Shown here one piece after another: positions 10,800-31,692 of a stretch of 64,000 bases of DNA (position 1 is its first letter; each line of letters opens with the position of its first letter). Origin of the DNA: Prostheceraeus crozeri (taxonomy: Eukaryota; Platyhelminthes; Polycladida; Euryleptidae). The notes under the pieces are model-generated. The model made no database searches. It was not told the origin of the DNA and worked only from the letters and a program-made list of their open reading frames with translations. The translations under genes were made by a program, and so were the position numbers. The stretch covers positions 372,001 to 436,000 of the forward strand of contig CAJQUW010011506.1 in NCBI GenBank assembly GCA_907163375.1, given 5' to 3'.

Positions 10800-11360
10800 A
10801 TCATTAGAAAATGAAACAATGAAACGCCCAATGTCTTTGTGCTTCGTAGATTTATCAAATGCGTTTGATTCTACTCCCAAAAAGCGATTGATTGATAAAT
10901 TGAAACGCTTGATACCTGAATGCAACCATATATCATCATAGTAAAGCCTATGATAAACAAAGAATACAAGGTACTTTTTGGTGGCAACGGGACACAATCC
11001 TTCAAACTTGAAAATGGAATTTCCCAAGGTGACGCTTTATCACCAAATTTATTCAGTATTTATGAAAAAGATTTAATTCATATCTTAAATGCTGACAAAA
11101 GCAAAAGTGACTCAATAAAAATATTTGATTTTGAGATATTATCACTGATTTATTCAGATGATATACTGTCAATGAGTGAGGGCAAGCGGTGCTTGGGTGA
11201 TCAAATTGCAACGCTTTACAAATTTAATTCAGAAAATGGACTTAGCATCAATCATGACGAGATTAGGATTATGACTCATAATATCAGCACTAAATTGAGT
11301 AAATTAGATATCAATCTTAATAGCAGAAAGGTGCCCATTGAGGTTGTTGGCATGTCTTCA
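10800..11360 (+). pseudogene. Non-LTR retrotransposon RT domain (broken element, part 1)
   Basis: At about 10830 one frame reads LCFVDLSNAFDST, the RT motif A with its catalytic Asp. It hits a stop near 10938, and another frame takes over with FKLENGISQGDALSPNLFSI (motif B). Next comes LIYSDDIL near 11155, the YxDD active-site block in variant YSDD. The long frame ends near 11430. Later parts of the same element continue at 11690-12180 and 13289-13690. Between them sit two insertions. Catalytic residues survive but at least one frameshift breaks the protein. No upstream endonuclease is visible, so the copy is probably 5' truncated, as most non-LTR copies are. Confidence 0.85.
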
Positions 11361-11590
11361 GGAATAATAATAATAAGTAGTATTTATATAACGCATTGCC
11401 CAAAAGACTCAGAGCGGAGCAAATCAATGTAAAATTATACAAGCAAATGTGATCAAGTCAATGAAAGTAGATGTTTCTTCAAAAAACGTTTAAAGCGGGA
11501 AAAGGGTTTGGTCGATCGCAATCCACGTGGCAAGTCATTCCACCAAAGAGAGGCTTGTGAAGTAGACGCTCTGTCAGCCGAAATTTGGCT
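11361..11590. repeat. Widespread TATTTATATAACGC-type repeat fragment
   Basis: Starts with an AAT microsatellite (11361-11376), then TATTTATATAACGCATTGCC. Near 11497 come GGGTTTGGTCGATCGCAATC and GGCAAGTCATTCCACCAAAG, then GACGCTCTGTCAGCC. From memory this order (microsatellite, TATTTATATAGCGC, 'GGxGxGxGTTCCA', 'GAAxGCTCTGTC') recurs in many animal genomes as the end of an abundant retroelement-related repeat. Here it interrupts the non-LTR element. The right boundary is vague, somewhere between 11590 and 11690. Confidence 0.55.
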
Positions 11591-23304: not shown

Positions 23305-23725
23305 TTTCATAGAAGTGTCTCTTTTCCTTGCTTTTCCATTATCTCTACACTTCATGATTGATCGCTTTCATTCTTGTAATAACAATAGGGGCCTACGCGG
23401 CATCAATTGGTTTGAGAAATTTAAAGATTGCGTGACTCAGGTGGTCAAAGAATTTGACAGAATGTTCCATGTTTTGCTCAATTTTATCGAGATCAGAGCT
23501 GACCGCTTTCTTTCCACAGCAACGAAAACTTCTACCACTTCACTTTGTGATCAATTTTTTAAGAGCGATAAAGTTTTCTACGTTTCCTATGGTGTCAGTT
23601 ATCGATCTTCTCACTTATTTATGTGTAATTTTATATATATTATGGTTTTCATCACTCCTAGAACTCTCTTTAAAAATCGCCCTCCTGAATTTAGTACATT
23701 ATCTTCCATCTCACTGTGCAGTATG
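23305..23725. repeat. Diverged direct duplication, copy 1
   Basis: Roughly colinear with 26235-26600. Shared blocks include GTCAAAGAATT(T/C), TGATCGCTTTC-like words, ACCACTTCACT..TATCAAT, GTTTCCT(A/T)TGGTGTCA, CACTTAT..TGTGTAATT and TCATCACTC..GAACT. Identity is perhaps 65-70% by eye with indels. The young Penelope-like element sits between the copies. It may be two copies of an old transposable element or a local duplication. Confidence 0.6.
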
Positions 23726-23731
23726 GAACGC

Positions 23732-23743
23732 CCTACTTTTTCG
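23732..23743. repeat. Target-site duplication of the Penelope-like element, left
   Basis: CCTACTTTTTCG, identical to 25901-25912. Twelve bases is in the range reported for Penelope-like elements. Confidence 0.88.
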
Positions 23744-23744
23744 T

Positions 23745-23928
23745 AATTTTCCACGTTGTAAACAAAAAGATAGCTCTCCCTCAATTTAGACGATTTATTT
23801 ATTTTTTTAAAAAATAAAGTTCCCCGACGCGTTTCGTCACGGTGGACAGTATCAAGGGGGTAAGTAAATGAACAGGCAGTTGGCTTAAATATAAAAATGA
23901 TTAGGCAGTGACGACTCGTTAGATCAAT
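23745..23928 (-). repeat. Penelope terminal repeat, 3' copy (sense)
   Basis: 184 bp. It is the exact reverse complement of 25682-25865. The stop codon of the RT frame (minus-strand TAA at 23921-23919) lies inside it. It holds the hammerhead-like motif at 23822-23859 in the sense of the RT frame. Confidence 0.95.
23822..23859 (-). ncRNA. Hammerhead-ribozyme-like motif in Penelope repeat
   Basis: On the minus strand: CCCC, then TTGATAC, then GTCCACCGTGAC, then GAAA, then CGCGTC, then GGGG. The outer CCCC/GGGG can pair as stem I, GTC/GAC as stem II, and GAAA-C..G-UC has the form of the hammerhead 3' core with a tiny stem III. Penelope-like elements are known to carry minimal hammerheads of this kind. 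The 5' core here is UUGAUAC instead of the consensus CUGAUGA. The usual C3, G8 and A9 are changed, so activity is doubtful. Both terminal repeats have the same sequence, so the change predates this insertion. Confidence 0.5.
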
Positions 23929-25709
23929 TCATGTTTGCGGTTGATTTGTGGCTTGTTCAACGCTATGAAGCGTGCTTCGGCCATTTTAGTTTGCATCGAA
24001 TTCTTTTGTTTATTTAGGACAGAAAGCTGGAAATTATCGATGTTCATCATTCTATCGACATGGTCAGTCAAACTATGTTCAGATAGTGCACTTTTACGAT
24101 CTTGACAGTTCAAACTACGTCTGTGTTCATCATGCCGTAACTTTAAAGGTCGGCAAGTTTGACCAATGTAATTTTTATGACAAATTTTACATTCAAAATT
24201 ATACACAATGTATTTATCTTTACACATATATTTAGGTCCAATATCCCTGCACAGTTTACAATTACATTTGTTATTGTTTTCAATAGTATTTATGCTATTA
24301 ACTAAAGTTTGACCGGGTTTGCAGGTAACACGAACAGGAAGTTCATACTTACTGACCAGTTTATTAATTTTTCTTAAGTAGCTATCACTAATGAAATCAA
24401 CACAAAGGTTAATTTGATTTTCATTACTTTTAGTATTGGATTTTGATTTTGGTGTAATTGAGTTAGGCTTAAATCCATTTTCATACAGACGTTTTTTCAT
24501 TACATTAACTGACTCTAAGGAAGTATCCGAACAAAGATCTTGCACATATTTAATACTACTGAGTACAAAATTATTTTTTATGTGATTTGGCAACCAACTA
24601 TCTTTACGCATCGTAATTCCAGAATGACAGGATTTACTATACCATTTATACCGCAACCTTTGACTTACGGAAATACTTATATCCAAAAAATTCAAGTAAT
24701 CGTTTTCAGGAATTTCAATTGTGAAATTGATGTTATTGTTTGCTGAATTAAAGAGATGTAATATATCCTGAAAAAACTTTTCACTTTTTGGATATGGTCC
24801 CAAGATTATATCATCGATATACCGCTTGTAAATTAAGGGTACAGTACCTAAATTTTTATTTAAGTTATCAAGAGCTATGGTTTCAATTGCATTCATGTAA
24901 ATGATCGCAAAAGGCGGAGCAAAATGAGCCCCCATAGGGCATCCTTTAATCTGTAAATATGTCTTATTATTGTAGGTTATTTCATAATTATAGGATATGA
25001 ATTTCAAAAAGTCAACTAGGTCTTCAACTCTAAAGCCATAATTATCAATTTTATTCCAATGTATTTTAGCAAACGTCTCTATTTCTGCGATAGCCTCAGC
25101 AATTGGTATACTCGGATATAAGTTTTGAACGTCCAGTGAAATAAACACATAGTCCTCATTTACAAATTTGTCAGCATTTTCATTAAGAATTTTGATCAAA
25201 GATTTAGAACTATCCAAATGGGCTGGAACAAATTTTACTAATTGGTTGAGGAGAACACTCACAAGCCAATCAACTTTCTGAGTAGGGGTGCCAATTACTG
25301 AAGCGATGGGCCTTAAGGGAAAGAAATTATTAATCTTATCTTTATGATCTTTTATGTTTACACGAAAGTAAGCCGGATGACTTCCACAAGTCAGTAGTTT
25401 TTGATAGTCTATGTAAGCATTGTTCCGACATTTATTACGAATCAAGCAATTCGCTTGATTTTCTATACTAGAATTTTTGGATTTTTCTCTATATTTGTAT
25501 GTACTATTGTCATTCAAAATGTCTTCTGTCCTTGAAATAATACTTTTTTTATCTACCACTATGTTCCGATTTGACTTATCAGACGGAATGACAAGTAAAT
25601 TGTTTTGTTTAAGGAAAATCCTTGAATCAGATTTTATTCTATTAGTTTTTTTGTATGAATTCCCTTGATACTGTCCTTGATATTGATCTAACGAGTCGTC
25701 ACTGCCTAA
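23919..25709 (-). CDS. Penelope-like reverse transcriptase with GIY-YIG nuclease, 5'-truncated
   Basis: Uninterrupted frame of 596 codons, open from a stop inside the upstream repeat (25712-25710) and without an ATG before the conserved part. Early motif VIPSDKSNRNIVVD is the Penelope 'DKGxxxVV' block. RT follows: LRPIASVIGTPTQK, FISLDVQNLYPS (catalytic Asp), GCPMGAHFAPPFA, and YKRYIDDI (two catalytic Asp, near codons 299-300). After the thumb comes a Cys cluster (CNCKLC, YMC, FECKIC). The C-terminal GIY-YIG domain reads YNFECKIC..NYIGQT, then LRHDEHRRS and ALSEH. A full-length protein of the family is about 800 residues, so the N-terminal third is missing. No stops or frameshifts. The enzyme would copy RNA at a nicked target; the truncation makes this copy probably non-autonomous. 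Confidence 0.93.
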   Translation of the reverse strand, partial: LGSDDSLDQYQGQYQGNSYKKTNRIKSDSRIFLKQNNLLVIPSDKSNRNIVVDKKSIISRTEDILNDNSTYKYREKSKNSSIENQANCLIRNKCRNNAYIDYQKLLTCGSHPAYFRVNIKDHKDKINNFFPLRPIASVIGTPTQKVDWLVSVLLNQLVKFVPAHLDSSKSLIKILNENADKFVNEDYVFISLDVQNLYPSIPIAEAIAEIETFAKIHWNKIDNYGFRVEDLVDFLKFISYNYEITYNNKTYLQIKGCPMGAHFAPPFAIIYMNAIETIALDNLNKNLGTVPLIYKRYIDDIILGPYPKSEKFFQDILHLFNSANNNINFTIEIPENDYLNFLDISISVSQRLRYKWYSKSCHSGITMRKDSWLPNHIKNNFVLSSIKYVQDLCSDTSLESVNVMKKRLYENGFKPNSITPKSKSNTKSNENQINLCVDFISDSYLRKINKLVSKYELPVRVTCKPGQTLVNSINTIENNNKCNCKLCRDIGPKYMCKDKYIVYNFECKICHKNYIGQTCRPLKLRHDEHRRSLNCQDRKSALSEHSLTDHVDRMMNIDNFQLSVLNKQKNSMQTKMAEARFIALNKPQINRKHELI

Positions 25710-25765
25710 TCATTTTTATATTTAAGCCAACTGCCTGTTCATTTACTTACCCCCTTGATACTGTC
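25665..25765. repeat. 14-bp direct repeat at the ORF/terminal-repeat junction
   Basis: CCTTGATACTGTCC occurs at 25665-25678, just inside the truncated reading frame, and again at 25753-25766 inside the inverted terminal repeat (the hammerhead-like region). It could be the microhomology at which reverse transcription switched strand and joined the inverted repeat to the truncated frame. Confidence 0.6.
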
Positions 25766-25865
25766 CACCGTGACGAAACGCGTCGGGGAACTTTATTTTT
25801 TAAAAAAATAAATAAATCGTCTAAATTGAGGGAGAGCTATCTTTTTGTTTACAACGTGGAAAATT
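25682..25865 (+). repeat. Penelope terminal repeat, 5' copy (inverted)
   Basis: 184 bp, exact reverse complement of 23745-23928. Its hammerhead-like motif (25751-25788) therefore points away from the reading frame. The 35-nt tail 25866-25900 follows it. Confidence 0.95.
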
Positions 25866-25900
25866 GCATAATGAACCTCCCGTATAAGACAACAAAAGAT

Positions 25901-25912
25901 CCTACTTTTTCG
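25901..25912. repeat. Target-site duplication of the Penelope-like element, right
   Basis: CCTACTTTTTCG, identical to 23732-23743. Confidence 0.88.
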
Positions 25913-26234
25913 GCACACAAGAAATTGAGTGGGTTATTCGGAGACAGAAGCCTGCAAATACTCGAAGGGCCAATACATTCGCTATCCACGTTTCCGACGA
26001 GTGGGTTGCTGCCCTAAGTTCAGCTTTCCCAAACGATCCCTTCCCTACACTGCATCAACTTCCCGACGTACCCATAAACAAGTTGAACGTTTTAAACATT
26101 TCGTCCGCTTTCTCATGTATTTCATTATACACGGGAAATGGGATAATAGGTTATTATTCATGGAGACTGGAACATAGCCTAGCACAATTAAAATCTGGCA
26201 TCATAAATGTGGAGGTAACTTACTTGGGATTTAT
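25913..26234. other. Intron, GC-richer unassigned stretch
   Basis: Somewhat GC-richer than the surroundings (about 25920-26080), with open frames on the plus strand that I do not recognise and no convincing splice sites. Confidence 0.3.
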
Positions 26235-26600
26235 AATAGCTTTTCACATAAGTGTCTACACTTCCGGATTGATTCACTACTGTAAGAGCATCACGCGGAA
26301 TAAATTAATTGTCTTGGTTCTGAGAAATTGAAGGATTGAGATGGTTGACGGTCAAAGAATTCTATTGAAGTGTGTCGTCTCCATGTTTTTGCTGTATTTC
26401 ATCGCTACATCAGGGCTGATCGCTTTCCTTCTACGACACCGATAATTTACACCACTTCACTATCTTATCAATCTTCGAGGAGCGACAGTCGCCCGCGTTT
26501 CCTTTGGTGTCAATTGCTTTTTCACTTATGTGTAATTGTATCTGAATTATATTTTTCATCACTCGGAGAACTTTCTATAAAATCTCCCCCGTGAATTTAA
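26235..26600. repeat. Diverged direct duplication, copy 2
   Basis: Partner of 23305-23725, same orientation; shared blocks are listed there. Confidence 0.6.
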
Positions 26601-29868: not shown

Positions 29869-31692
29869 CAGTACCTGTCATAAGTTTGGAAACCCCATAC
29901 ACGAAAGCAATAATTTTGTTAAATCAAAACTATACAAAGTAATCCAAAATTTACATGTATTTCTGAAGTGACTATGAATGTCTTTATTATATTATATTAT
30001 CGTGGCAGGCTACTTACATCAGTATTTTGATGGATAGTACTTATTCTTCATCACTGCTTGAATTCTTGAAGGCATTGATGCCACAAGTCTGTTGCACAAC
30101 ATTGGATCAGTTTGTTGGGTCCACAGATCAATTATTGCTTGTTTCAACTGCATGATGGAGGTTATCTTCAATTTGTTGATTTTTCTTTTCATTATGCACC
30201 ATAAATTTTCAGTGGGATTTAGGTCGGGTGAATTCGGTGGCCACTTCAGAGTCTGGATAGCATGATTTTCAAGCCATTCTGTGACTTTCTTTGATCTATG
30301 GCACAGTGCGCCGTCTTGCATGAAAATGCTTGCGTCTCGGATCGTCATGAACGGAAGGAGATGAGACTCTAGAGTTTCTAAATATCTTGATGAATCCATA
30401 TTGACATTCTGAGGTAAGATAGCCAAACCTCCTCTTCCAGTGGCGGAAAAACAAGCCCATACCATCACGTGCGGAGGATGCTTCACCGTTGGTTGGGTAA
30501 ACCGATGATCGGACGGATCAGATTGTTTTGGTCTTCGGACACGCCACCTTGATTGATCAAACAAATAAAAGTTTGACTCATCTGACCAAATGATGTGACC
30601 CCAATCGTCAGCTGTCCAATCTTTTGTTCGCATACAAAATTCTTTCCTTTTCTGCAAATGGCCTTTCGTCATTAGAGGTTTTCGCTGAACTTTGCGAGCC
30701 CATAAGTTAAAGTCTTTCCGCAAAACACGAGAAACTGTTTCCGTAGACACACACCGTAGAGGAGATACTTCTCGGATGAGATCATTAGAAGTTAGGAAAG
30801 GATCTGCCGATATGACCTTCTTCATTCGTCTCTTTGTATGTTTGGATACCTTGGAAGGTCGACCGCAACGGCTACGAACTGAGAAATTTCCTTCCATGTT
30901 GTATCGTTTCAAAATCTTTGATACAGCTGATTTTGAAACTTTCAGCTGTATGCAAATCATCTTGTGGCTGAGTCCTGCTCTTTTCAGCTCCACAATCGCG
31001 CCTCTCTGTGCATCAGTTAGTTGTTTCCCTGATCCCATTGCAATGCAGAAATGAAAATGAGATGACTCGTCACTGATACTTAGAACATACACCCGTATTA
31101 GTAAGCTATCTATGCTATCGCTATGACGACGACAATGCAGTAAGCTCGAATGGGATTGACAGCCTAGATATCTGATAATCATTGAAATCATTAACTGCTA
31201 TTACCATAGAATCTCTGTTATCTAGGGGACATTCCAAGCACATATTTTGCAATCAGTGGAAACGCAACAGCCTATGACAATGGCAGGCTTCAAGCGCACA
31301 TCTAATTGTAACCGATCACGGTCAAATTTGGTCAAATACCCGAGATGAATTGTAGACGAAAATCTGAATTTTCATGTCCCACCTGGAATAATTGGAATCG
31401 GACAGTCCTAGCGGAATCTACAGCTTCCCCAGTTCACATCTACTCTCATTTTTCAATCTCAACAATGAATTTTGCTTCGGAGCATGACCCGCCTTGCTAG
31501 TCTTCCATGGTGCCACTGGCATTTCGTCATGTCTCCTCTAGACAAGCAGAGGAGGGAAACATCCATTTCTATGGTTATTACTGTGGAGTGAGATAATTTT
31601 GACAAAAAAATTAGGATACGAGTGAATGCACTATGAATTTCATAAAATCATTGACTTGGGACACGGGGTTTCCAAACTTATGACAGGTACTG
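29869..31692 (-). mobile_element. Tc1-type DNA transposon, apparently complete
   Basis: 1,824 bp. The ends are CAGTACCTGTCATAAGTTTG and GAAACCCC at the left, repeated in inverted form at the right, where the last base is 31692. About 28 bp are identical, and weaker similarity runs to about 55 bp. It encodes one intact DD34E transposase on the minus strand. Flanked by a 14-bp direct repeat rather than a plain TA, although the left copy ends in TA next to the element. High similarity of the ends and the open frame suggest a fairly recent arrival. Confidence 0.93.
30019..31038 (-). CDS. Tc1-family transposase, intact, DD34E
   Basis: 339 residues, the usual length for Tc1 transposases. The start chosen is the Met of MGSGKQLTDAQRG (31038-31036). 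The frame stays open 51 codons further upstream, but that part has no family similarity. Residues 7-47 form the first helix-turn-helix. A CGRPSK segment at 58-63 resembles the GRPR-like hook. The second helix-turn-helix follows at about 65-110. The DDE core has Asp153 in WSDESNF, Asp242 in FMQDGALCH and Glu277 in NPTENLW, with exactly 34 residues between the last two. No stop or frameshift. It would bind the terminal repeats and cut and paste the element at TA sites. It is the only full-length transposase in the window. Confidence 0.95.
   Translation of the reverse strand: MGSGKQLTDAQRGAIVELKRAGLSHKMICIQLKVSKSAVSKILKRYNMEGNFSVRSRCGRPSKVSKHTKRRMKKVISADPFLTSNDLIREVSPLRCVSTETVSRVLRKDFNLWARKVQRKPLMTKGHLQKRKEFCMRTKDWTADDWGHIIWSDESNFYLFDQSRWRVRRPKQSDPSDHRFTQPTVKHPPHVMVWACFSATGRGGLAILPQNVNMDSSRYLETLESHLLPFMTIRDASIFMQDGALCHRSKKVTEWLENHAIQTLKWPPNSPDLNPTENLWCIMKRKINKLKITSIMQLKQAIIDLWTQQTDPMLCNRLVASMPSRIQAVMKNKYYPSKY

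Follow-up and report, generated by a model that had tools for sequence, protein, structure and literature searches.

A Penelope-like insertion in Prostheceraeus crozeri best read as two cDNAs joined head-to-head, with one tail end in each two-armed copy sampled

In the genome of Prostheceraeus crozeri we found that the 2,157 bp between two copies of the word CCTACTTTTTCG, within a 64-kb window (the whole stretch of 64,000 nucleotides analysed), are a 5'-truncated insertion of a Penelope-like element (PLE). The insertion is best read as the product of two cDNAs, a reading that jointly explains its inverted repeat, the exactness of that repeat, the one-sided tail, the target duplication and the truncation. 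We estimate a probability of roughly 0.8 that each cDNA was primed on its own target strand from its own internal site in the element RNA, and that the two were joined head-to-head. The anatomy recurs in sister copies across the genome, and all two-armed insertions of our sample have exactly one end at the tail site. For PLE integration, with its inverted pseudo-LTRs (pLTRs) and one-sided tail, the dozens of young copies present here make cDNA starts, cDNA stops and the pairing of start sites countable.

The original prediction had described perfect inverted repeats of 184 bp, a flanking duplication of 12 bp, a 35-nt tail on one side only and an RT/GIY-YIG frame free of stops, and these features were borne out base for base. 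Over all 184 nt, the repeat at 23745-23928 is the exact reverse complement of that at 25682-25865. On either strand of the window CCTACTTTTTCG occurs only at 23732-23743 and 25901-25912, the left and right target-site duplications, and none of 200 flank shuffles matched the length of this common word. The left duplication is followed by a single extra base (23744), apparently untemplated, and by a long cDNA arm (23745-25666, on the minus strand, which is the element sense) that begins at the pLTR end and corresponds to positions 2840 down to 919 of the family unit; its pLTR portion (23745-23928, minus strand) is the left inverted repeat. A filler of 15 nt (25667-25681) lies between this arm and the short cDNA arm (25682-25900, plus strand), which begins at the tail site and consists of the pLTR (25682-25865) and the tail (25866-25900, plus strand). 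A 15-nt stretch spanning this inner junction (25662-25676) repeats pLTR sequence at 25752-25766.

The minus-strand frame runs from 25709 to 23919 over 596 codons from stop to stop, and the element's coding part (approximately 23922-25667) represents codons 305-886 with the RT and GIY-YIG domains, amounting to about two thirds of a Penelope-like RT/GIY-YIG protein counted from its C-terminus. The predicted 5' truncation was likewise found: codons 1-304 of the 886-aa family ORF are missing, and the window copy is therefore incapable of making the whole protein. Profile searches with the frame matched RVT_1 (E 1.3e-7) and, below threshold, GIY-YIG (E 0.087). In an alignment of 15 proteins, the D and Y.DD columns of the RT and the Y, Y.G, R, E and N columns of GIY-YIG, which we take to be catalytic residues, were invariant. 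Among the best 120 of 305 relatives, those with domain labels carried only PF00078, PF28514, PF26215 and PF01541. The family combines an RT with a C-terminal GIY-YIG in a single ORF, pseudo-LTRs, partial tandem units (with tandem units on contig C2423), inverted pLTRs, a short tail and target-site duplications whose length varies (from 9 to 15 bp among the 27 insertions, out of 33, that have a clear one). The window element is thus an endonuclease-bearing (EN+) PLE, in agreement with the Penelope-like identity proposed at the outset, of a family new within the known PLEs. A DNA transposon with true terminal inverted repeats was rejected because the window frame matches RT and GIY-YIG only, and one with fixed inverted repeats because the shared inverted stretch varies from copy to copy. 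Searches for solved structures with a sequence match to the window protein, and for confirmed relatives in viral and prokaryote collections, returned none.

In the reading direction of the pLTR, the 35-nt tail extends this repeat into the beginning of the family's ORF: a 5-nt leader is followed by the ATG (25871-25873) and the first ten codons, MNLPYKTTKD. The best relative, P0001 (920 aa), shares 98% identity over 582 residues, counted from its residue 339. Its extra N-terminus matches pLTR DNA, which in the window begins with GTG, and for this reason is probably an extension made by the gene caller. P0001 was also rejected as proof of an ORF start in the hammerhead-like region of the pLTR: of 18 other relatives read, eight have an LP motif like NLP in their first 14 residues, two start with MVLPP and six start further in. 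Since the tail continues the pLTR into the ORF start and relatives have similar starts, it is the stretch that directly follows in the RNA of the element itself and not foreign sequence.

For sister copies, the genome (2.05 Gb, 14,165 contigs) was searched with the element body, which gave at least 107 matching pieces among the best 40 of 2,384 candidates. All listed pieces were annotated and mapped on the 2,840-bp family unit taken from C2423, yielding 33 distinct insertions; the sample consists of the best-scoring candidates, so that the family has at least 33 copies. Two subfamilies were present, A with 19 insertions at 99.4% identity or more to the unit and B with 14 at 97.4-98.7%. In the following, T denotes the tail site, which lies near codon 10 of the ORF; an end counts as P, the pLTR end, when it falls at unit position 2835-2840 or no more than 5 nt past it.

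Two cDNAs converging head-to-head, with their 5' sides inward, made up 20 of the 33 insertions. Exactly one T end was found in each of the 20, which under independent even odds has a chance of about 1e-6. The second end was P in 15, lay 15-19 nt before P (2821 or 2825) in two, and was at 2726, 2602 and 2360 in the remaining three. Twelve insertions were one-armed, six with T and six with P, the other end being less sure in the three of them that have no clear duplication; one further insertion was cut by a contig end. The original prediction had proposed a search for the tail at other insertions, and a T end was indeed present in 20 of 20 two-armed and 6 of 12 one-armed copies. Because 12 of 33 insertions are one-armed and six of these lack T, an insertion requires neither a second arm nor a T end. 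Likewise, because three of 20 second arms begin inside the element and 2602-2604 recurs, P is not the sole partner of T. This position, near the ORF end, represents a third recurrent cDNA start (L031, L056 and L058).

A tail-signature script found the same T ends in all 31 loci given to it, and its stricter P label missed L034 (start at 2838). The P arm of L021 is only 22 nt long, and a plain search would miss such an arm. Eight more insertions selected by their T ends (the first eight of 17 new ones) comprised five two-armed copies with one T each and three one-armed T copies; the second ends of the five were P in two, 2827 in one and 2604 in two. In C1942, a P end predicted from piece L052 was present at the expected base. 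Among the best 40 of 1,100 candidates for T ends, 29 ends lay on 29 contigs and formed no pairs. A statement that two-armed insertions always have exactly one tail was not found in the literature searched, which left several core PLE papers outside its reach, and the portion consulted of the in vitro study of an Anolis PLE (PMC11167929) did not report it. To this extent the one-T rule is an addition to known PLE anatomy.

The two arms of an insertion belong together. Inverted structures and arrays might in principle stem from two separate insertions or from later recombination between copies, for which the abundance of the family and the many units of the C2423 array could speak, but in 18 of 20 two-armed insertions, an array of 18.8 kb included, the structure sits as a whole inside a single duplication, and insertion-specific variants are mostly common to both arms. 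We consider such an origin extremely improbable. Among the 27 duplications, whose lengths include shared bases, 12 bp was the commonest (nine); three were read by eye (L027/L044, L038/L045 and L043), and those of L017, L018, L033 and L039 were weaker (shuffle p 0.01-0.035). Six of the 33 insertions had no clear duplication, in one case owing to a contig end. One word of an apparent other host repeat, ATTGACATCATATATTG, was hit in both L009 (C8039) and L043 (C13304), in opposite orientation.

At family-polymorphic positions, which are linked so that cell counts are not independent, the arms agreed in 62 of 64 cells in subfamily A (array left out) and in 110 of 123 in subfamily B, whereas different insertions mismatched at 23% (A) and 32% (B) of such positions. 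Eight of the 13 disagreeing cells in B fell at 2762-2780, an AT-rich stretch. Pooled substitutions amounted to 57 in 68,664 within insertions versus 27,624 in 2,110,964 between them, where the former figure is dominated by the C2423 array and the latter mixes subfamilies. Of the 18,777 bp of this array, 7,589 nt (2.67 units) belong to the P arm and 11,180 nt (3.94 units) to the T arm; an 8-nt filler joins the two, and all of it lies within one 12-bp duplication of CATAACCCCATA. The full units of the array differ by no more than one base per pair. Arms longer than one unit were also found in C8039, C135, C7023, C9681, C10760, C203, C10071 and C7708.

Where the arms meet, microhomology of 5, 4, 6 and 3 nt was seen in L036, L037, L038 and L043, respectively. 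Other junctions carried short or longer fillers, and nearby sequence was repeated in L015, L010, C2423 and the window. Judged from their sequence, these junctions resemble the products of alternative end joining, templated insertions included. Arm stops clustered at about 555-590, 915-933, 1148-1184 and 2525-2575, more than a uniform model would predict (p 0.003-0.011). An inverted copy could also form if a single cDNA or antisense template folded back and primed on itself, as was proposed for Adineta PLEs with palindromic junctions in the part consulted of that report (PMC3846280). Fold-back would give the head-to-head orientation and the near-symmetric junctions seen in two of 20 insertions (L015 at 2526/2525 and L040 at 1282/1264). 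However, the arms end at clearly different template positions in the other 18, fold-back does not predict second arms whose outer ends fall on P or no more than 19 nt away, as 17 of 20 do, and the symmetric L015 falls in the frequent stop region at about 2525-2575. We therefore regard self-priming as very unlikely.

In LINE-1 twin priming two cDNAs, one per target strand, produce an inversion within one target duplication. Applied to our family, ordinary target-primed reverse transcription, in which the second strand happens to prime at an arbitrary RNA position, would account for inverted arms and target duplications, for microhomology at an internal start (8 nt common with the target in L040) and possibly for the three internal starts among the 20. 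It is nevertheless quite unlikely as a general explanation, since the second start lies at P or no more than 19 nt off in 17 of 20 and is not random, and the other arm begins at T in all 20. The family thus differs from LINE-1 in having a mostly site-specific second start, and in starting inside the template where LINE-1 starts at the 3' poly(A).

Under the preferred reading of two separately primed cDNAs, the element protein would cut both target strands 12 bp apart, and each cut 3' end would prime its own reverse transcription inside the element RNA, at sites about 35 nt apart, namely T (near codon 10 of the ORF) and P (at the pLTR end, immediately ahead of the start codon). In the window, the P-started strand would have run for 1,922 nt and ended at codon 305 of the ORF lying upstream, while the T-started strand would comprise tail and pLTR (219 nt). 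Joining of the two cDNA ends head-to-head with a short filler, and subsequent gap filling, would then produce the target duplication. Because both cDNAs contain the pLTR, the apparent terminal inverted repeats would be their shared stretch. Priming on both strands, the order of the steps and the pathway of joining are all suggested by the arrangement of the copies. The counts agree with biochemical work, as far as the consulted portion of that study goes, in which the purified protein of an Anolis PLE cleaves the two target strands and extends each of them, and reverse transcription begins at two adjacent internal RNA sites that bound the tail (PMC11167929).

As a more specific proposal, an asymmetric complex may pair one RT set to T with a partner set to P or another non-T site, each strand-primed on RNA from the same source and never T with T or P with P, and on multi-unit or circular templates may build a head-to-head concatemer of about 19 kb per event. 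We offer this tentatively and at somewhat less than even odds: our evidence that a T start is paired with a non-T start is genomic, and in the Anolis assay, as described in the section consulted, the start site was alike on top and bottom strand (PMC11167929). If the one-T rule holds in other families, the halves of the integration complex would be non-equivalent. A convoy model, in which both enzymes travel on one linear RNA with T behind P, was rejected because the longer arm varies, being T in L010, L014, L020, L021 and L029 and P in L001, L034, L036 and L037.

It is possible, though doubtful, that the multi-unit arms reflect lap-after-lap copying of circular RNA and not long tandem transcripts. 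The arms span 1.0 to 3.9 units, full units of the C2423 array differ at no more than one base per pair, and the pLTR copies examined carry a near-identical hammerhead-like motif at unit position 2725-2763. Transcripts of homogeneous tandem units would look identical, however, and the motif, which reads CCCCC..GACGAAACGCGTC..GGGG and is present in the window in the long arm (23822-23860, minus strand) and the short arm (25750-25788, plus strand), has no canonical hammerhead core. This core is CUGANGA; the 3' half of the motif is conventional (GACGAAACGCGTC), but UUGAUAC stands at the expected CUGANGA position, and the Rfam hammerhead models gave no match. Divergence among copies is too small for conservation of the motif above its surroundings to be detectable. 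The predicted RNA fold spanning P and T is a hairpin (z -1.94).

The family resembles the Poseidon PLE of Anolis carolinensis (PAc), as far as described in the part of the study consulted (PMC11167929), in its RT and GIY-YIG protein, its pLTRs in tandem units, a tail whose limits are a pair of neighbouring internal RT start sites close to the ORF start, and an AC-rich start site, which in our family was judged by eye. It differs in that the start codon lies about 80 nt past the hammerhead-like motif, whereas in PAc it lies within the motif, and in that T is about 30 nt into the ORF, compared with 111-118 in PAc. Cutting and extension of both strands were demonstrated in vitro for PAc, whereas our family is known from the genome alone (PMC11167929). 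Penelope elements of Adineta vaga (Pen2a_Av and others) similarly have inverted pLTRs, target duplications of 9-10 bp, 5'-truncated and tandem copies, and a 31-bp tail that is optional on one of the inverted pLTRs, according to the portion consulted of that paper (PMC3846280). Each of these families has one copy or a few, and the paper proposed self-priming for them, in contrast to the dozens of young copies with symmetric junctions in two of 20 insertions here (PMC3846280).

The joined flanks of the window insertion had at least 14 other matches in the genome that span no fewer than 340 of 351 bp, with 75-88% identity (best 40 of 346 candidates), and as the flanks recur in this way, the insertion sits in a dispersed host repeat. 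Four of the 14 were aligned and carry a single copy of the target word with few changes, i.e. they are paralogous unoccupied sites. Among the listed matches only such paralogous sites, and no allelic unoccupied site, were present. The host repeat extends over 23520-23731 and 25913-26600 of the window, and a diverged piece (73%) adjoins it in tandem.

The insertion had been called very young, partly on account of its perfect repeats. Recent insertion is supported by 99.91% identity of the window copy to the C2423 unit, by matches to copies on several further contigs whose identity rounds to 100%, and by full-length copies with an open 886-aa ORF in the same genome. The perfect repeats themselves are weak evidence: zero differences in 184 bp bound the pairwise divergence of the arms at about 1.6% (95%), and arms expected to be alike at birth make a weak clock. 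The full-length relatives that had been anticipated were thus found, but for the family 'master' a single locus is a less apt description than a group of near-identical copies and tandem units.

Further PLE-like ORFs were seen in the same genome in a protein search with P0006 (best 55 of 49,314 candidates). Tandem units of other PLE families with uninterrupted frames were present on C11977, C2433 and C367, and repeated units, likewise with uninterrupted frames, also on C339. Among the matches listed were four neighbouring head-to-head PLE pairs with their 5' sides inward (C11786, C11662, C9149 and C339). The window itself additionally contains a fragment of another reverse transcriptase at 10920-11432 (RVT_1 E 3.5e-10), LINE-like by eye, and a Tc1/mariner-type element at 29869-31692 with inverted repeats of 56 bp (82%) and a stop-free transposase frame of 392 aa at 30019-31197 on the minus strand (DDE_3 E 4e-14).
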